27,211 bases of DNA from a virus, in the IMG/VR virus record IMGVR_UViG_3300021963_000544, positions 1-27,211 of that record; one strand, written 5' to 3'. The position numbers were made by a program, and so were the translations under genes. This document shows, one piece after another, positions 3,288 through 24,030 of the stretch (its first letter is position 1; each line of letters begins with the position of its first letter). The notes beneath the pieces were generated by a model, which ran no database searches, was not told where the DNA came from, and saw nothing but the letters and a program-made list of their open reading frames with translations.

Positions 3288-4505
3288 TTACGCCCCGCGA
3301 GCCCTCTGCAACTTCTCAATCGCAGTCTTCTGCAGCCGGCCCTTGCCGCTCTCGGCTCCGGCCGTCATGTCCTTATACGACTTCGGCGCCCGCCCGCCAG
3401 AGCGGCGCGCCGGAGCGTCAGTGTGCTTCTTTTCGATGTCCGTCTTCTGCAGACGACCCTCGCCCGACGCGGCGCCAGCCTCCATGTCCTTGTAGGACGA
3501 CGCGACCCTGGTAATGCGGCCACCAGCCTTGCGGCCCATGGGCATGGGACCCGGGGCCGGCATGGGCGGCGGCGCGGCAATCGCGGGCGGCATCATCGGA
3601 GCAGGCGCGCCGCCGGGCGCCGGCATCGGCACGGGGGCCACGCCCGGCCCGCCGTCGGGCGGAAGCATGGGTAGCGGACCCGGTTTGCCGCCAGCAGAGA
3701 TGATGTTGATCTTGATGTCGGTCTTGCCCTTGCCGCCCTTGCGGGACTTTGGCTTCGCGCCCATCAGAGCGCCGCCGGAGGCCTTGGCGACCTTCTTCCC
3801 GCCGCGCTTCATAAACTGATCGCTTTGCACCGGCTGAGCGAGGGAGCCGCGCATTCCGGGGGCTTCATTTTCGTAAGCGACCTGCATTTCGCGAGATCCG
3901 CGCTCTGGCGAAAGTCGCTCAAGCCGCGCGCGCCGCCGAGCAGGGCTTGCTGCCCGCTTTGCTCCTACAAGCTGCATGGGCGCGCCGGGAGCCTTGGCGG
4001 GGGCCTCCTCGCCACTTCCCATCCACGTTGAGCCGTCGATGTAGCCACGGCCGGCAAGCGCATTGGCGAGCGCGTCAATGATGCCGCCATCCGCCTTGGC
4101 GACCTTGCCGCCGCTCTTGTAATGCCCCGCGGCAGCGCGCGTCGGCTTGTGGATCTTGGCCTCGGGGAGACCGCCCCCATGCTTCATGCCGCCGATGTGC
4201 TTGATGCCCGGGCGCTGTTCGTTGGCTTCCTTCATGTCCTTATTGGCCATGCCGATGCCGATATCCTTCTCCATGACCTTGCCGCCCGCCTTGCGACCCG
4301 GGCGATCGGCGCGACGCGCTGACGCCGAGCCGCCGGCGCTGTATTCGCGCGGCTTGCCGATCGGGCGCATGCCTGTCTTGATGTCTGCGTTCAGGGGCTC
4401 GGCCGGCGACCAGTCGGAGCTATCTACCTTCTGATCTTTTTCGCCCGCCAGCCGGCGGGCTTTTGCCTTCATGGCCTCACGGGCCTGCTTGGCGACATCG
4501 GACAT
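3288..4505 (-). CDS. cationic Gly-Gly-repeat, low-complexity phage protein
   Basis: 405 residues, very basic, rich in Gly, Ala, Pro, Lys and Arg, with little predicted fold. Three layers of repetition are visible: at least eight short basic Gly-Gly motifs (RKAGGKV, KSGGKV, KADGGII, KRGGKKV, KASGGAL, RKAGGRI, RSGGRA); a Pro/Met/Gly tract around residues 275-330; and a C-terminal near-duplicate of about 24 residues beginning SYKDMEAGAASGEGRLQKT and SYKDMTAGAESGKGRLQKT. Such 'YKDMTAGAxSGxGRLxKT' segments occur in other phage proteins next to portal genes. It lies between the polyvalent protein and the small head genes, so a DNA-binding or internal virion role is plausible but unproven. AGGAG precedes the ATG by 8 bases. 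Confidence 0.6.
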   Translation of the reverse strand: MSDVAKQAREAMKAKARRLAGEKDQKVDSSDWSPAEPLNADIKTGMRPIGKPREYSAGGSASARRADRPGRKAGGKVMEKDIGIGMANKDMKEANEQRPGIKHIGGMKHGGGLPEAKIHKPTRAAAGHYKSGGKVAKADGGIIDALANALAGRGYIDGSTWMGSGEEAPAKAPGAPMQLVGAKRAASPARRRARLERLSPERGSREMQVAYENEAPGMRGSLAQPVQSDQFMKRGGKKVAKASGGALMGAKPKSRKGGKGKTDIKINIISAGGKPGPLPMLPPDGGPGVAPVPMPAPGGAPAPMMPPAIAAPPPMPAPGPMPMGRKAGGRITRVASSYKDMEAGAASGEGRLQKTDIEKKHTDAPARRSGGRAPKSYKDMTAGAESGKGRLQKTAIEKLQRARGA

Positions 4506-4544: not shown

Positions 4545-7500
4545 CTACGCCGCCTCAAGCTCTCGCGCGTTTGCGATGTTGGATGATACACGAACGGCGT
4601 CGTCAATTACAGAGCCGCCCGAGGCGTATAGCGTTCCCGACAAGACAAGATCGCGCGCGGTCTCCGGAGAGACGCCTCGGCGCCTCGCGATGTTGGCGAT
4701 CTCTTGCGAAAGCATTTCAAGTTTTGGCGAGCCGATTGGCGTGTCGACGCCTGTCGCGCCGGAGCCCGTTCCCCAAAGCAACGCCTGCGCGGGAACTGCC
4801 TCCATCTCCGCCGGCCGCGCGACGCTTTCGCGGAACCACGGGCCGACGGGCCTATATTCGCCCATCTTCATTGACACTTCCGGGTCCGCCGTCTTGCGCA
4901 CATCAGGCATGCCAAGAATGCGCGTGTAATGCGCGTCCGGCACCGGCAGCTTTGTCTGGAAGCCTGTCTCAGGCACGCCAGACGCCTGAATGTAGAGAGG
5001 CACCTTCGGCGTTCCGGTCGTGTATTCGCCGGTCTCGAAGAAGCGGCGGAGCGGGCCCGCGTGCGACGTCGAGTGATACGGGTGGCCCTGCATGACCTCG
5101 CGCACGTATGACGGCAGGCCTTCTGCTGGCGCGGCGGACGGCTTGCCGCCATGCGTCAGGAAGTCTTGCAGCCGCCCCTGCATCGCAAGGTGATACGCGC
5201 CAAGGCCACGATTGATTTCTGTCTGCACCGGACTGCCGGGCGACATAGCCCCAAGCGTCGTGTTGAAAATGTTGTAGCGCGCCGCGGCCTCTTCCGGATC
5301 AAACAACTCTTTCAGGCGCGCGTGCACAGGGTCCATGTAATACCAGGGCATCATGCCTGTGCGCAGGCCCGGCTGCTTCTCTCCCTCCGCGAGGATGTCA
5401 AGAAGGCGACGCTCGTTCTCCGGCGTCATGACGCCCTCGGAGGCGTAATTGATGCCACGCGTGCGCTCCGGCGGCGCGGCCAGCTTGGGCTCCATGTTGC
5501 CTTGGCGGCGCGCCGCGATGTCGAAAACATCCTGTCGCGTCACGCCGAATAGCTGCTTCATGATCGGGTCTTCGGGCGCGACGCGGCTTTCCGCCTCAAG
5601 CGCCATTTCGCGCGGATTGCCGTAGACGCCGGGGAACAGTGGCTCCTCGCGCGCGAGGTTCTTCACTGTTGGCACAATCTTTTTCGCCAGCGCCTTGGCG
5701 ATGACGCCCGACATTGTTTCGGCTTTCGCCGATCCAACCGGGTTGAATTGCGACAGGAAGCCTAGCGCGCGGTCAACGACGCCCGGCTCTTCAACCTCGC
5801 CTCCCTCGGCCTTGCCCGTCAGGCTGCGAATGTAGGCCTCGACATCTTCGCCGACGGCCGGAGCGGGCGCTTGCGTCCACTCCGGCATGCGGCCGATCTT
5901 CTGTTCGGCAAAGTGGGTTGTTGCCCCGGGCGCGGATCGGTTTGCTTCACCGTAAGGCCCGTAGTTCACCCACGAGTTCTGCCCGCGCGTCTCTAGCGTG
6001 GCGGCGGGTAGCGCCTCCTTGCCAAACATGCGCGAGTGGAGTTGATACGCACGCTCTTCGCCCGGAGCGCGGAAAAAAGGATTGCCCGGACCAAAGTGGC
6101 CGTAAAGATCGTGAGCAATCCGAAAAGCATCGTTGATGACTGCATCGGGTTTGTCTCCTACCTTGCCGGCGCGGCGCAGGAGGGGATTGTCGGCGATCAA
6201 GCCTCCGGACGATCCAAACCCTTGCTCGGTGGGGAAGACGAAGAGCCGACCCCGGTTGACGATATCCTCATAACCCAGCGCCGGCGACGCGGCATAAGGA
6301 TCAGCCTGTCCTTGCTTGAGAAAACGGAAGTCAATTCCTGTGTCCTTTGCGGCTCTGTATTGGGCCATGGTCTCGTCTATGAGCGCGTCATAGGCTCGAC
6401 GAACGGCCGGATCGCCGGGACGATGCTTCATCTCAGCGAAGGCGTCTGCGACCTTGGTCGCAAATTCCGGATTGAATTCAGGGAAAGATGCGACCTCATG
6501 CTCGCCGGGGCGGCCGATCGTCTGCATGTATTTTGACGCGGCGCTTTCGACCTCAGGGATCGGCCGCGCCTCGACCTTGCCAATACCGGGCAAGGTGACG
6601 AGCGACGGCTTGCCGGGCGCGCCGGCGTAACCGGAGCCTTCGGGTAAAAGCTTGCCGAGCATCTTGAGAGCAGCCTTGACCGTTCCGCCATCCGCGCGGC
6701 CCGCGCGTCTCTGCGCCTCAAGCTCCTGCGCGTATTTCATCATCGCCTCTTCTTCGGGCGACACGGCTTCCTCAAGCCTGGAAGGCAACGGATCAGATTG
6801 TAGCTTGCGAGCCAAGGCAATCGCGCCCTCTCGCGCCTTTTCCCATTCAGGATTTGGTTCGTTGCCAATGATGGCTGGCGAGGGCGGTCGGACAATGATG
6901 CTTTCGTCGGAGAACGGATAATTCATACGACGCTCTGGAAGCGACATTTCAAGACGCTCGCCGGGAAGGCGCGCAGTGACTTCCCCGAGAGATTTGAAAT
7001 ATTGTTGATACGGATCAGGCGTCGTCTCATAGATACGATCAATCTGATGCCCGAGAAGTTCTTGGGTGTTGTAAAGCCCTTCATTGCCAAGACTGATAAA
7101 TTTCAGGGGCTGCGGGCCAAGGGGCAATCCTGCTTTACGCGCCTCGACAAGGGCGTCCAGCGGCCTCATCGTTGGATTGCGTTCCATAAACTCTTTGAGA
7201 ACAGACGCGCCTTTGGCTGACTGCAAATCCTCTTTTAGCGGCGCCGCAAGACGATCAGGGTGTGGGAATACGTCTGGATTTGTTCCCGGAGACATTTGCT
7301 CAACATGCTGAACGCGATGCTGATGCTCATGCAAAAGATTTTCAAGTAAGTCGCGATCGTCAAGCCGGACGTTGGAGCCGATTTCATCCTTAAGCTGATC
7401 GAAGTAGCCGCGGTGCCGCATCTCGCGCTCAAACGGAGCAACCGAAGCGGAAAAGGACCCCGGGTAAAGATCATAGACTTCCGGGTGTGAAAGCAATTCA

Positions 7501-8297
7501 CCGAGCTGGACTTTTTCGCCACGGCGGAACCGCTCAAGTCCGGAAGGAATAAGCCGGGCAGGCGCGTCTGAAATTTCGCCAACAATTTTTCCCGAGGGGT
7601 CTGGGGCCGCCCCGTAGCGCGCAAATGCGCTGCGCGGATACATGCTTTGCCGCGTTGCGTGCTTGGCCGCCTCAAATGCTTGCCGCATGGCGGGTGACAT
7701 CCGAGCAGCTTCTGAGAAAAAAGTTGCCTGCGCTTCCTGCGGCATCATGGCCGCTCCGGCGAGGATGGCTGATTTTGCGTATTTGCCGGGCGCGCCGAGG
7801 GCTGCCGTAGCAAGTTCGAAGGGGTCGCCGTGCTTCATGCCAGCGGCCACGTCGCGCGCGGCAAAGGCCGGCGCAGCCGGCGTGAAATAGGGCGCAACGC
7901 CCATCGCGGTTTCCAGGGCGGCGGCAGTCGCCGGCGGAGCGCGGAAAAGCTCCTTTTCGTAACCGGAAAGCGGCTCACGAAACGTGACGGGCGCTGTCTC
8001 GACAACGCCGGGCCCACTTTCGTAATGCGTCATGGAACGCTGATCTTCAGGCGACGGCGCGCCGCCTTCCTGCATCACCTGTCGCCCGACTTGCGGCATG
8101 TAGGCGGTCGGGAACTCGTCCTCCAAAATGCGCCCGCCTGTGGCATACTGTCGCAGGCCCGGGACATATTGCCCCTCTTGCTTCCGGCCCGGAAACAGCG
8201 GCGCGACGGCGTAGGAATAGAGCGCGAGGCGGCGGAAGTATTCTTCCGGGTCAGCCTTGCCGAGGCCGAGATCAAGGCGCTGGGGAACGTCGGCCAT
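4545..8297 (-). CDS. polyvalent multidomain protein with zinc-metallopeptidase motif
   Basis: 1250 residues. Domain 1 (about 230-455) holds HEHQH at 323-327, an HExxH zinc-site pattern in 'LLHEHQHRVQ', and a later 'SLGEVTARL' (Glu 439) fitting the GExxAR third-ligand region of metallopeptidase-like polyvalent-protein domains. Domain 2 (about 585-808) has HDLYGH (729-734), 'RAPGEERAYQLHSRMF' and 'ETRGQNSWVNYGPYGEANR', a strongly conserved-looking block I associate with very large phage proteins but cannot name. Domain 3 (about 880-1180) has 'WYYMDPVHARLKELF' and 'YNIFNTTLGAMSPGSPVQTEI'. Motifs YATGG (51), RADGG (534), KAEGG (829) and YASGG (1224) fall near the domain limits. It follows portal by 6 bases; GGAGGG at the portal end serves as ribosome site. 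Polyvalent proteins are thought to be delivered with phage DNA and act early in the host; delivery here is inferred. Confidence 0.7.
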   Translation of the reverse strand: MADVPQRLDLGLGKADPEEYFRRLALYSYAVAPLFPGRKQEGQYVPGLRQYATGGRILEDEFPTAYMPQVGRQVMQEGGAPSPEDQRSMTHYESGPGVVETAPVTFREPLSGYEKELFRAPPATAAALETAMGVAPYFTPAAPAFAARDVAAGMKHGDPFELATAALGAPGKYAKSAILAGAAMMPQEAQATFFSEAARMSPAMRQAFEAAKHATRQSMYPRSAFARYGAAPDPSGKIVGEISDAPARLIPSGLERFRRGEKVQLGELLSHPEVYDLYPGSFSASVAPFEREMRHRGYFDQLKDEIGSNVRLDDRDLLENLLHEHQHRVQHVEQMSPGTNPDVFPHPDRLAAPLKEDLQSAKGASVLKEFMERNPTMRPLDALVEARKAGLPLGPQPLKFISLGNEGLYNTQELLGHQIDRIYETTPDPYQQYFKSLGEVTARLPGERLEMSLPERRMNYPFSDESIIVRPPSPAIIGNEPNPEWEKAREGAIALARKLQSDPLPSRLEEAVSPEEEAMMKYAQELEAQRRAGRADGGTVKAALKMLGKLLPEGSGYAGAPGKPSLVTLPGIGKVEARPIPEVESAASKYMQTIGRPGEHEVASFPEFNPEFATKVADAFAEMKHRPGDPAVRRAYDALIDETMAQYRAAKDTGIDFRFLKQGQADPYAASPALGYEDIVNRGRLFVFPTEQGFGSSGGLIADNPLLRRAGKVGDKPDAVINDAFRIAHDLYGHFGPGNPFFRAPGEERAYQLHSRMFGKEALPAATLETRGQNSWVNYGPYGEANRSAPGATTHFAEQKIGRMPEWTQAPAPAVGEDVEAYIRSLTGKAEGGEVEEPGVVDRALGFLSQFNPVGSAKAETMSGVIAKALAKKIVPTVKNLAREEPLFPGVYGNPREMALEAESRVAPEDPIMKQLFGVTRQDVFDIAARRQGNMEPKLAAPPERTRGINYASEGVMTPENERRLLDILAEGEKQPGLRTGMMPWYYMDPVHARLKELFDPEEAAARYNIFNTTLGAMSPGSPVQTEINRGLGAYHLAMQGRLQDFLTHGGKPSAAPAEGLPSYVREVMQGHPYHSTSHAGPLRRFFETGEYTTGTPKVPLYIQASGVPETGFQTKLPVPDAHYTRILGMPDVRKTADPEVSMKMGEYRPVGPWFRESVARPAEMEAVPAQALLWGTGSGATGVDTPIGSPKLEMLSQEIANIARRRGVSPETARDLVLSGTLYASGGSVIDDAVRVSSNIANARELEAA

Positions 8298-10960: not shown

Positions 10961-12586
10961 TTAAATTGGATAGAGCGGCTCCTCCGGAGCGCCGCGATGC
11001 ACAATACTTTCGTCGACTTCGGCCGTCCACTCTGCGCCTCTGACGAGCAGTCCCGCGTCGCGCAGGTGGCGCATCGCCATACTAACCGTGTCGACAAGAT
11101 CGTCATGCTTCCCTTTCGGGAATTGCGACGCCTGATTTATGACGGCGTCTGCCCATGATCGATCCGGCGCATAGATGAGGCCCTCTGCAAAAAGATGCTG
11201 CACGCTGTAAAGACGGGCCATCTTGTCGAGCGTCCTCGGGTCGACCATCTGCACGCCAAAATCCTCGTGACCATAAACGCGACGAAGCTCCTGGGCAACG
11301 CTATGGCCGGACGCCTTGTTTTCGACCAACAGCCGATCAACGCCGTATCGGTCCATTGTCTCGCGCACTTTCTCGACGAGGTCATGAAGCTCAAGGCGTT
11401 CAGTCCACGCATACATGAGCATGCACTTTGGATGCTCGTCGCTATATGTGCGTTGCAGAACAGCCATAATCTCTCCGTCAGAAGTCGGCGCGCGGGTTAT
11501 TTGCGCGACCTGATCGCCGCCCGACCAGATGCCCCAGACGGTCATGGCGCTCGGGTCGTTCTCCTGCTTCGTCGTGTAGGCCGTGTCGAGGCTGGCGACG
11601 ACGTAATCAAATTGCGGGTAGCTCTCGCGCTCCCATAGCTGCCACCACTCGCGCTTGATAATGCCGCCGCCGCGCGGCACGGGACTTTGCTGCAATTGGC
11701 CGGCAGACGCATATGGGCCCATGACACGCTCGTCGCGATCGACGACGTGCTCCGGGAAGCGGGCGGGGAACAGAAGCTCGCCCTCTTCCTTGCGCGGATC
11801 CTCCCAGCCAAGCAGCGTCGGCGCGGCCCTGCCGGGATCGTAGCGCATAGGCAGCATGATGTGATCGTAGCCAAGCTGCTTGTCGATGATGACGCCGGAG
11901 ACGTCGCCCTCGTGCAGTCGCTGCATGATGACGACGATCGCGGATCGCTCCGGGTTGTTTAGACGCGTCGGGACGGCTTCGAGAAACCACTCGATCGTTG
12001 AGGCTCGCATGGCGTCGGAGCTGGCGCCCTCGACGCTGTGCGGGTCATCAATGATGACAATGTCGCCGCGCGAGCCGGTGATTGAGCCTGACGCGACAGC
12101 CTCGCGGAAGCCGGTGGCGGTGTTCTCAAATTTTGTTTTGGCGTTCTGGTCGCCCGTGAGCGTAACTTGATCGCCCCACCGCGCCTGATACCAGTCGCTG
12201 GCGATGAGGCGGCGCATTTTCGTGCTGTCGCGGATCGCGAGCGACTGCGAGTGCGACGCGCAGAGGAAACGCTTGTGCGGCTGCTGCTTCGGCCCCCAGA
12301 TCCACGCCGGCCAGAAGACGCTGGTGAGCAGCGACTTCATTGCGCCCGGCGGCACGTTGATCAGGAGGCGGTTGTAGAACTCGCCCTCCTCGATCTCAAC
12401 GCCGTCCGCGATAGCTTCGAGGTGAGCGCAGAGAAAGTCTATGTGCCACCCGTGAACGTATGGCGAGCCCGGCTCGATGATGTGCCAAGCCATCCGCACG
12501 AACTTAACAAGGCTGCCGGCCGCATCAATCTTGTCGAGTTCGATCAGCGTTTCGTCGACGTCATCTATGACGAGGTCGTCGATCAT
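10961..12586 (-). CDS. terL: terminase large subunit
   Basis: 541 residues, the usual length. The protein is the ATP-driven packaging motor and genome-cutting nuclease that docks on the portal. ATPase half: phosphate-binding loop NVPPGAMKS (77-85), a variant Walker A, and Walker B DIVIIDDPHS (175-184). Nuclease half (RNase H fold): 'SLDTAY' (Asp 334), 'LLVENKASG' (Glu 422) and 'GKHDDLVD' (Asp 495/496), which give the expected three acidic metal ligands. The start overlaps the oxygenase stop by 4 bases (ATGA), so the two genes are probably translationally coupled. The family is the one where the DNA-binding small subunit lies upstream, as found here at 13784-14254. Confidence 0.95.
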   Translation of the reverse strand: MIDDLVIDDVDETLIELDKIDAAGSLVKFVRMAWHIIEPGSPYVHGWHIDFLCAHLEAIADGVEIEEGEFYNRLLINVPPGAMKSLLTSVFWPAWIWGPKQQPHKRFLCASHSQSLAIRDSTKMRRLIASDWYQARWGDQVTLTGDQNAKTKFENTATGFREAVASGSITGSRGDIVIIDDPHSVEGASSDAMRASTIEWFLEAVPTRLNNPERSAIVVIMQRLHEGDVSGVIIDKQLGYDHIMLPMRYDPGRAAPTLLGWEDPRKEEGELLFPARFPEHVVDRDERVMGPYASAGQLQQSPVPRGGGIIKREWWQLWERESYPQFDYVVASLDTAYTTKQENDPSAMTVWGIWSGGDQVAQITRAPTSDGEIMAVLQRTYSDEHPKCMLMYAWTERLELHDLVEKVRETMDRYGVDRLLVENKASGHSVAQELRRVYGHEDFGVQMVDPRTLDKMARLYSVQHLFAEGLIYAPDRSWADAVINQASQFPKGKHDDLVDTVSMAMRHLRDAGLLVRGAEWTAEVDESIVHRGAPEEPLYPI

Positions 12587-21759: not shown

Positions 21760-21786
21760 GCCTGTGAGATCTCACGCCTCACAGGC
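21760..21786. other. inverted repeat at the end of the primase-helicase gene
   Basis: GCCTGTGA (21760-21767) and TCACAGGC (21779-21786) are exact reverse complements; the interior also contains the 12-base palindrome GTGAGATCTCAC (21764-21775). It overlaps the stop codon of the leftward primase-helicase gene. No T-run follows on the minus strand, so it is not a standard terminator; it could protect the mRNA 3' end or bind protein. Confidence 0.5.
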
Positions 21787-23947
21787 CGTTCAGGACCTTC
21801 AGGCCCTTCAATTTTGTGCTGCTGTCGCGCACGGCGGTTACGATCACGTCATTGCTAAGCCAGCGCCTGATCATGCTCTCCCCGACGTCGACATCGACGG
21901 CAAATCTGTCCTTGATCAGCCACGGCGCGTAGCGTCCATCCTCGCGCGTCTGCTTGTTGTTGCTCCACGGCCGGCCCTCGTCCCACGCCTTCTGAAGGTC
22001 GCGCAGGATCGCCTTGCAAACGTCCTTTGCGGGCCACTTCTTGCCGTCGACGATCTGGCCGCCCGTCTCCTGCTGGCCGCCAAAGCCCTCTCCGGCGGGC
22101 TGCGCGCGGTCGACAGTGCGCTCGGCGACGAGGGAAGTCTTGCCTATGCCGACGGCCACCTCCGTCAACACAAAGGCCTCCCGCCAGCCATCCCGGGCCG
22201 ACTTGATCTTGCGGGCGACGAGAAACCTCTCGCCCGTCTCCTCGTCGATCTCGATCGAGATCAGGAAGTCAGCGGCGCCGTCGAAGACCGTCGAGCCGCG
22301 CATGCTCGCGCCCGCGCGCGCCGTGTGGTGGACGCCCATGACGGCGCAGTCGAAAGCCTCCTGGATCGCCTGACACGTCTTGATGTAGAGCGTCATGTCT
22401 TTCTGCAGGTTCTCGTCGGCTCCCGGCAACGTCCTCGACACCGTGTCTACGACAACCAGCGCCGGCGGCTCGTCGCCGTATCCCCCCCGCATAGTCCGCA
22501 GCAGCTTCATGACGCACTCGGCGTCCATGAAGTTCACGCTGTCCTTGAGCAGCGAGAAACTGATATCGCCCTCAGTGACAGGCGTCTTGTTTCGCGTTGA
22601 CCACGCCTCGATGCGGAACTTCATGTCGTTCACGCCCTCGCATGAGATGTAGAGGACCGGCCCCTTGCGGCTGATCTTTCGCCCCCACCAGTCCGGGCGG
22701 CCGGTGGCGATCGACAGCGCGAGGCTCTTGGCCACGAATGTCTTCCCCAGCCCCGGCGCGGCAAACAGGAAGCCCAGCGCGCGCTCCATGATCAGGTCGT
22801 CGACCAGATAGACCGGGTCCGGCATGTTCATGATGTCGCGGATGCTGAGCAGCTGATAGACGTCCGCCTCCGGGTCCGCGACCGTGATCGCGTTTCCGGA
22901 AAACCCGGCATCAAAAGGGGACGGGTTTTCTCCAGGGTTTCCGGATAACGGCGCCTCAGCCTTCTTTTGCGGCGGATCACTGGCCGCGCGCGCGATCTTC
23001 TCGTCCCACTGCGCGATCGCCTCCCGCCACTTCTGCGCAAACAGCGTCAGGCCGCGGCCCTCGCGCTCGAGGAGGATGTGGTTGGGGGTGCCGGGCTCGT
23101 GGATGCGGGATTTGACCCGGAGCTCGAACAGCTTGAAGCACTCGCGCATCAGCCGCTGCTGCTCGCCGGGGTCTGGCAGGATCGGGCAATCCCGATAGGC
23201 GTTCACGACCGCGGCGAACACCATGCGATGCATGTAGTCTTCGCGCCCGTCGACGATATTGCCAAAGGCGTCCGTGGCTCTTTCCGGCGTCGGCGTCTTT
23301 TCCTTCGCGCCCGTCGAACCCTCTCCTCCGGTGCCATATTTGTCCGCCAGCGCGCGCACTTCCTCGAGAAGCCAGTCTGGCGCCGTCTCAATCCCGACAT
23401 CGCACGGCTCAAACCCATCGTCCCAGTGGTAATAGCCGCCGCTGTCGTGTTTTGAGGGAGGCAGCATGGCGAAGCCGCCCTCGCCCCGGAAGTCGACACC
23501 GATTGGCGTCTTGGTTGTCGGGAGGCGAACGCCTGCCGGCGCGCGGAAAAAATATTGCTTGCCGCCGCCGCCCGTCGTCTGCGTCGCCGTCTCGAGGAAG
23601 ACGCCGCCGTGGTGGTCGGCGTGTATGCCTTCCCACCAGACATTCGCCTCCGGGTGCTTGTGCGTGTCGAGATCAATGACGAGGAGGTTTCCGGAGCAAG
23701 ACCCGGTGATGACGCCCATATTCTGGCGATTGATGAATTCACCGCCGGCGCCATACCACTGCTCGAACAACTCATCATTGATCAGTTGCTTCTCATGCTC
23801 GCGCCACGGGATTGCCGGGCGCTTGAAGCCTTCGCCTCTTTTTACTTCTGCGGGAGACTTGGCGGGGACAACTTGCAGGCCGCACGATCTATACATCCGC
23901 GCCCATTGTGAAACGGACGCGAAGCCGGCGTCGAAATCTTCTTGCAT
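21779..23947 (-). CDS. primase-polymerase / RecA-like replicative helicase fusion
   Basis: 722 residues from ATG 23947. N-terminal primpol domain (about 1-225): 'MGVITGSCSGNLLVIDLDTH' gives the DxD metal site (Asp 92/94), with 'GVDFRGEGGFAMLPPSKHDSGG' the typical continuation. A linker follows, then a RecA-like ATPase (about 370-600): Walker A 'APGLGKT' (397-403), Walker B 'LVVVDTVSR' (497-505), and 'GVHHTARAGASMRGSTVFDG', as in RepA/AAA_25-type helicases. The C-terminus (about 630-722) looks like a winged-helix module. It would unwind DNA and prime synthesis. The frame stays open to ATG 24019, but the first 24 residues look non-conserved; neither start has a good ribosome site, unusual here, so translation may be regulated (see leader elements). 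Confidence 0.88.
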   Translation of the reverse strand: MQEDFDAGFASVSQWARMYRSCGLQVVPAKSPAEVKRGEGFKRPAIPWREHEKQLINDELFEQWYGAGGEFINRQNMGVITGSCSGNLLVIDLDTHKHPEANVWWEGIHADHHGGVFLETATQTTGGGGKQYFFRAPAGVRLPTTKTPIGVDFRGEGGFAMLPPSKHDSGGYYHWDDGFEPCDVGIETAPDWLLEEVRALADKYGTGGEGSTGAKEKTPTPERATDAFGNIVDGREDYMHRMVFAAVVNAYRDCPILPDPGEQQRLMRECFKLFELRVKSRIHEPGTPNHILLEREGRGLTLFAQKWREAIAQWDEKIARAASDPPQKKAEAPLSGNPGENPSPFDAGFSGNAITVADPEADVYQLLSIRDIMNMPDPVYLVDDLIMERALGFLFAAPGLGKTFVAKSLALSIATGRPDWWGRKISRKGPVLYISCEGVNDMKFRIEAWSTRNKTPVTEGDISFSLLKDSVNFMDAECVMKLLRTMRGGYGDEPPALVVVDTVSRTLPGADENLQKDMTLYIKTCQAIQEAFDCAVMGVHHTARAGASMRGSTVFDGAADFLISIEIDEETGERFLVARKIKSARDGWREAFVLTEVAVGIGKTSLVAERTVDRAQPAGEGFGGQQETGGQIVDGKKWPAKDVCKAILRDLQKAWDEGRPWSNNKQTREDGRYAPWLIKDRFAVDVDVGESMIRRWLSNDVIVTAVRDSSTKLKGLKVLNGL

Positions 23948-23953
23948 TGCAGG

Positions 23954-23996
23954 GGCTCTTTGCTTTCGTGGGGAAATATCAAAATATTTAAGAGCC
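23954..23996 (-). promoter_or_regulatory. structured leader next to the primase-helicase start
   Basis: GGCTCTT (23954-23960) pairs with AAGAGCC (23990-23996), and inside it AAATAT (23974-23979) pairs with ATATTT (23984-23989) around a 4-base loop. In the minus-strand mRNA this nested structure ends 6 bases before ATG 23947, and it would lie within the coding region if ATG 24019 were used. It may control initiation. Confidence 0.4.
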
Positions 23997-24000
23997 GCCC

Positions 24001-24030
24001 TTGAACGCCTGCCTCGCATTGGCGTATAAA
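24001..24030 (+). promoter_or_regulatory. plus-strand promoter opposite the primase leader
   Basis: TTGAAC (24001-24006), an 18-base spacer and TATAAA (24025-24030). It points rightwards, against all genes of this block, and is followed about 40 bases later by a textbook terminator on the same strand. A chance match cannot be excluded. Confidence 0.45.

Follow-up and report, generated by a model that had tools for sequence, protein, structure and literature searches.

A conserved domain of a portal-adjacent, polyvalent-type phage protein is probably a metal-dependent enzyme and recurs in bacterial cassettes with an S-adenosylhomocysteinase-like gene

The protein P0001, encoded next to the portal gene in the IMG/VR virus record that we analysed (27,211 nucleotides, here called the window), is a phage polyvalent-type protein, an overall kind that is already known. 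The new part of P0001 is its module B, a member of a widespread and previously unclassified family that is probably a metal-dependent enzyme, with putative metal binding and catalysis. P0001 is made up of three separate conserved modules (A, B and C), each of which has its own set of relatives. The best explanation as a whole, to which we give a probability of about 45%, is that P0001 is a delivered polyvalent protein with a SAM-related metalloenzyme (B), a zincin-like module (A) and a helical module (C).

The 1250-residue open reading frame that an earlier note on this DNA had described is real; it is located on the minus strand (4545..8297, read from 8297 to 4545) and begins with ATG. It shares 80% identity over the full length with one relative (L002) and 45-54% with others, and its motifs are conserved to an extent that excludes chance. 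The portal gene is located immediately upstream, ending 6 bp before P0001 (8304..10730, minus strand; SU10_portal E=2.1e-10, phrog_1216 E=1.1e-26), and the gene for the terminase large subunit (TerL) is found at 10961..12586 on the same strand (minus; phrog_38 E=2.2e-86, Terminase_6C E=1.1e-7); both were identified with Pfam and PHROGs profile searches. The P0001 gene is linked to virion genes, with TerL, portal and P0001 in a row, and this order is common to the relatives L002, L003 and L005-L009, whereas in L126 and L129 the portal gene follows the polyvalent-type gene instead.

The earlier assignment to the polyvalent proteins was borne out by the architecture, by the adjacency to the portal gene and by the polyvalent domains of the homologs: L012 matches Pfam LPD23 (E=5.5e-18), L008 matches PBECR5 at residues 898-972, between modules B and C (4.8e-11), and L114 carries ART-PolyVal. 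Recognised polyvalent domains are present above the Pfam cut-off in homologs only and not in P0001, in which residues about 212-265 (7503..7664, minus strand, approximate boundaries) align with the LPD23 stretch of L012 and score below the cut-off. Consistent with the position of its gene, P0001 is probably packaged and delivered with the DNA.

Elsewhere in the window, positions 21779-24019 encode a primase-polymerase/AAA helicase protein (Prim-Pol 4.5e-20, AAA_25 1.4e-30). Positions 3288-4505 encode a protein of 405 aa in which Gly, Ala, Lys and Pro are abundant and stretches similar to KAGG/KSGG recur; Pfam and PHROGs profile searches gave no family match for it. A short N-terminal segment of P0001 itself (residues 14-60, window 8118-8258) resembles the stretch located just before module C in L006 and L008.

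Module B comprises about 230 aa with a core at residues about 590-812 (5862..6530, minus strand). Its alignment (A4) contains 98 diverse rows with 22-91% identity to the window copy, which span phages, Actinomycetota, Bacteroidota and Pseudomonadota, and 14 residues are invariant in all of them (N722, D723, F725, R726, H729, D730, H734, F742, G746, E747, H754, E769, Q773 and K800). H729, D730 and H734 are part of the motif HDLYGH (residues 729-734; 6096..6113, minus strand), E747 and H754 are located on the next conserved helix (6036..6059, minus strand), and E769 and Q773 belong to ETRGQNSW (residues 769-776; 5970..5993, minus strand). The earlier note had placed both motifs in one block at residues 729-787; HDLYGH was found where it had been reported, and the block ends at residue 776. 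H729, D730, H734, E747, H754, E769 and Q773 make up a likely metal site.

The AlphaFold2 model of residues 559-815, computed with 91 of the 98 rows (rows from the phages collection were left out), has a pLDDT of 94.9 and a pTM of 0.92. A Foldseek search of this fold against the PDB gave no match with E <= 0.001, and against viral models it gave 20 matches, some with polyvalent-type names. Pfam gave no match for module B in the window, and NCBIfam gave none for P0001 and chance-level matches only for 3 of 9 bacterial relatives of B. Solved structures searched by sequence with B, C and DUF3293 returned nothing credible, the Gag/capsid rows for DUF3293 being at chance level. In PHROGs, phrog_3170 matches B at residues 721-783 (E=2.5e-9). 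Relatives of B are encoded in at least 595 IMG/VR stretches and at least 128 genome-collection entries; in the tree the window copy is part of a branch of 27 phage rows, with L002 nearest. Another B protein is gp99 of Mycobacterium phage Alice, a cultured phage. What stands of the undescribed enzyme suspected in the earlier note is a compact, well-predicted domain with an invariant set of His, Asp, Glu and Gln and with no family or PDB match; an enzymatic activity is what we infer from it.

The motif of B invites a comparison with the aromatic amino acid hydroxylases (AAAH). B might be a remote relative or a mimic of these; it would then be a non-haem Fe(II) enzyme that relies on both His residues of HDxFGH together with a Glu from a later helix, a reading that we consider quite unlikely. 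The bacterial AAAH sequence EPDxFHDxFGH resembles the NDxFRAVHDxFGH of B, visual comparison allows for a common order of elements, helix-strand-strand-helix(HDxFGH)-helix-helix(E), and hhalign found a local match (P=3.1e-4). However, no more than 10 columns are aligned in that match (prob 39%), in B the key Glu comes about 6 residues earlier (+40 instead of +46 from the first His), and the reduced form of B described below, mini-B, has HDxGH, which is one residue shorter. Furthermore, the best AAAH in the Foldseek search, TPH2, was found at rank 42 (E=3.4, TM 0.14) with no significant PDB match, and the family was picked after the motif had been seen.

It is also improbable that B is itself a metallopeptidase, namely a divergent one with the HExxxH type of motif, whose targets would be the polyprotein or proteins of the host. 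Polyvalent MPTases with HEXXXH have been noted by Iyer et al. (PMC5512222); B has HDxxxH, with a Glu and a His further along on later helices, and Pfam MATCAP is matched by 3 of the 98 members (best 1.7e-5). But B has an invariant Asp in place of the catalytic Glu, hhalign aligns MATCAP with another region of B (P=0.03) and no position could be assigned to the three Pfam matches. The sole peptidase row in the PDB fold search was 3c37 (E=0.91, TM 0.14), and a peptidase would leave the SAM-cycle neighbours described below unexplained. The more specific idea of a MATCAP-like peptidase was rejected: the three weak Pfam matches were not reproduced when members were scanned singly, hhalign aligned elsewhere, and genome searches gave MATCAP only in full-length MATCAP-type proteins, in a fragment and in one chance-level match.

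The first lead to the chemistry of B comes from bacteria, in which B also occurs as a free-standing protein, such as the Aquimarina protein of L053, in conserved SAM-cycle cassettes together with an AhcY-like (S-adenosylhomocysteinase) gene and DUF3293. The AhcY-like NAD-binding protein is found beside B in Bacteroidota, Alpha- and Gammaproteobacteria and one actinomycete, in most of them together with DUF3293, and these neighbour families were confirmed by Pfam. Among the 80 genome loci fetched for B, an AhcY-like match lies within about 6 kb of it in 18 and a DUF3293 match in 12, with fusions counted; the binomial tail for at least 17 of 80 is 6e-23 if a background of 0.5% is assumed and the kinship of the loci is ignored. 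A single 814-aa reading frame in Actinophytocola (L054:4807-7251) even combines AhcY-like, B and DUF3293, and in two further loci (L066, L068) B and DUF3293 share one reading frame. In the tree, a branch supported at 96/98 separates the 11 cassette rows from the others. The cassette is rare, being present in 1 of 274 and 1 of 296 sampled genomes, in each case the centre genome itself.

A second bacterial clade consists mostly of actinomycetes and Paraburkholderia. Here, B is located near aminotransferase-V/cysteine-desulfurase-like and SAM methyltransferase genes, with Cys/Met PLP and homocysteine S-methyltransferase genes also close by, and an AhcY match was found in the Streptomyces, Micromonospora and Paraburkholderia loci. 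This actinomycete/Paraburkholderia cluster around B was seen in L060, L063, L074, L078, L087, L103 and L106, and no description of it was found in the literature searched. Literature searches on DUF3293, the B cassette, SAH-hydrolase-like paralogs and a link between SAH hydrolase and phages likewise gave nothing relevant. None of the viral loci fetched for B has an AhcY-like or DUF3293 match; thus, the linkage stems from bacterial clades that are separate from the phage clade. The surroundings in bacteria point to a SAM/SAH/homocysteine-related metabolite as the most likely substrate of B.

These neighbourhoods also bear on a further reading, which we regard as unlikely: B would bind a metal or a ligand and catalyse nothing, serving as a sensor or as a structural component of the virion, and its residues would be conserved to keep it stable. 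No member of the B family has a known activity, and the depositors of Rhodococcus phage E3 labelled its B-carrying gp205 a structural protein (a literature search on this phage gave no dedicated paper among the matches listed). On the other hand, the invariant cluster of polar and charged residues looks like those of active sites, and one bacterial form of B shares one reading frame with an AhcY-like enzyme.

The second cassette partner, DUF3293, might provide a connection to SAM lyases. The phage SAMase family, including that of T3, consists of SAM lyases, and the T3 enzyme was first recognised for counteracting restriction-modification (PMC7877911). Searching 13 whole bacterial genomes with Pfam S-AdoMet_lyase gave matches in six, all of them sub-threshold: in two unrelated genomes (G032, G035) they map to the DUF3293 gene adjoining B, the matches of G614 and G615 map to L079 and L097, two proteins with a fused B, and those of G045 and G616 lie in reading frames as long as L065 and L062. 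A comparison of DUF3293 with five SAM lyases using hhalign was sub-threshold as well (P=0.0039, prob 9%; reversed control 0.34), and the five-sequence SAM-lyase profile did not recover DUF3293. These sequence matches are suggestive of a relation between DUF3293 and SAM lyases. B itself was rejected as a SAM lyase homolog (hhalign P=0.88), and it has no sequence similarity to DUF3293 (hhalign P=0.3).

Weak likeness to the phage SAM lyase family was observed for the DUF3293 proteins L053:6715-7122 and L048:6714-7160. In addition, four actinobacterial-type proteins of 450-585 aa (L062, L065, L079 and L097) combine a conserved, weakly SAM lyase-like N-terminal domain with a variant of B in which HDxxAH replaces HDxxGH; L065, a close version of these fusions, is from a MAG labelled Verrucomicrobia.

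A reduced form of B, mini-B, was found in some T7-like phages. In the viral fold search with B, Q0E607 of phage LKA1 appeared with E=1.3 and TM 0.24; ORF7 of LKA1 (188 aa) was equated with it on the basis of equal length. Six mini-B proteins compared with B using hhalign gave P=1.9e-7 (prob 94%; reversed control P=0.4), and relatives of mini-B are present in 123 phage records. Its motif is HDxGH. Mini-B is the first annotated gene of the Pifdecavirus phages Pf-10 (L255:588-1070) and Kanksi (L259:628-1128) and is located further inside the genome in phiPsa17, Bf7 and ERS. The first-gene slot holds the SAMase in T3 (PMC7877911); the position of mini-B in this slot is no more than suggestive.

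Module A is a zincin-like metallopeptidase candidate at residues about 266-455 (6933..7502, minus strand). The HEHQH motif was located at residues 323-327, as the earlier note had reported (7317..7331, minus strand), and HExxH is kept in 38 of 38 tblastn matches to module A. The zinc protease predicted there thus holds at the level of the motif, but the best Pfam match of the window copy, DUF6782, is sub-threshold (E=0.89), as are the matches of its homologs L008 and L012 (E=6e-4 to 8e-4). GEVTAR is indeed present at residues 438-443; the strict pattern, however, was found in just 4 of 37 HExxH matches (the window, L199, L200 and L219), so that its Glu is not established as a zinc ligand. We take module A to be a putative zincin-like metallopeptidase with a predicted activity.

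The WYYMDP and SPGSPVQ block of the earlier note was found at residues 985-990 and 1019-1025 and is part of a separate conserved domain, module C, of about 340 aa (residues about 888-1225; 4623..5636, minus strand). In its alignment of 12 rows 45 columns are invariant, among them W985, Y986 and P990 of WYYMDP and S1019 of SPGSPVQ. The AlphaFold2 model of residues 866-1250 (pLDDT 81.3, pTM 0.81) is almost wholly helical, and its fold has no match in the PDB, with a best E of 0.49 among the matches listed. Module C recurs in other B-containing phage proteins, and in L119 it is encoded in a separate reading frame after that of B. Two candidates for C were rejected: an HhH-GPD DNA glycosylase, based on the resemblance of PDAHYTR to vDtHvxR, since no such fold was among the PDB matches listed (best E=0.49), and DUF7178, a profile that matched neither the window protein nor the records of L002 and L012. 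In another phage contig, the reading frame just before that of B (L131:1424-2641) matches DUF7178 below the cut-off (1.1e-4) and weakly matches module C.

Taken together, P0001, encoded right after the portal, would be packaged and delivered with the phage DNA, and module A might process the P0001 polypeptide, of which module C would form a helical part. Module B would act on a SAM/SAH/homocysteine-related metabolite and alter a SAM-related pool at the start of infection. The changed pool could then weaken SAM-dependent defences such as restriction-modification or BREX, which is the least certain step. A further-reaching idea is more tentative and rather doubtful at present: B may be a new-fold family of SAM/SAH metalloenzymes that phages have reused as an early counter-defence, both within polyvalent proteins that are injected and, as the reduced mini-B, at the first-gene position of some T7-like phages. 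For many domains of the known polyvalent proteins no chemistry has been assigned. B is absent from Pfam and NCBIfam and has no solved relative, yet it is tied to specific metabolic genes by bacterial cassettes and a three-way fusion; thus, an anonymous phage domain can now be assayed on a small number of substrates. Should the SAM link prove true, B would be a second, unrelated enzyme family with which phages affect the methyl-donor pool that several defence systems need.

P0001 resembles the polyvalent proteins of Iyer et al. 2017 (PMC5512222) in being large and multidomain, with a zincin-type motif and a gene among virion genes, and in having homologs with LPD23, PBECR5 or ART-PolyVal; it differs in that no LPD domain of Pfam has a match in module B or C and the window copy is under every Pfam cut-off. 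Module A homologs align in the HExxH region with the putative metallopeptidases of DUF6782 (PF20573; E=6e-4 to 8e-4), but below the curated cut-off. E3 gp205 has B followed by DUF7178 (PF23802; 4.7e-17), whereas module C of the window does not match this family. Residues 721-783 of B align with phrog_3170, a family of unknown function. With AAAH (PF00351) B shares the iron-binding motif HDxFGH, but it has no fold match, an offset Glu and only 10 aligned columns. The T3-type SAM lyase (PF23780; PMC7877911) is unrelated to B in sequence (P=0.88), but it occupies the first-gene position in T3, which in Pifdecavirus belongs to mini-B, and it weakly resembles DUF3293, the neighbour of bacterial B.
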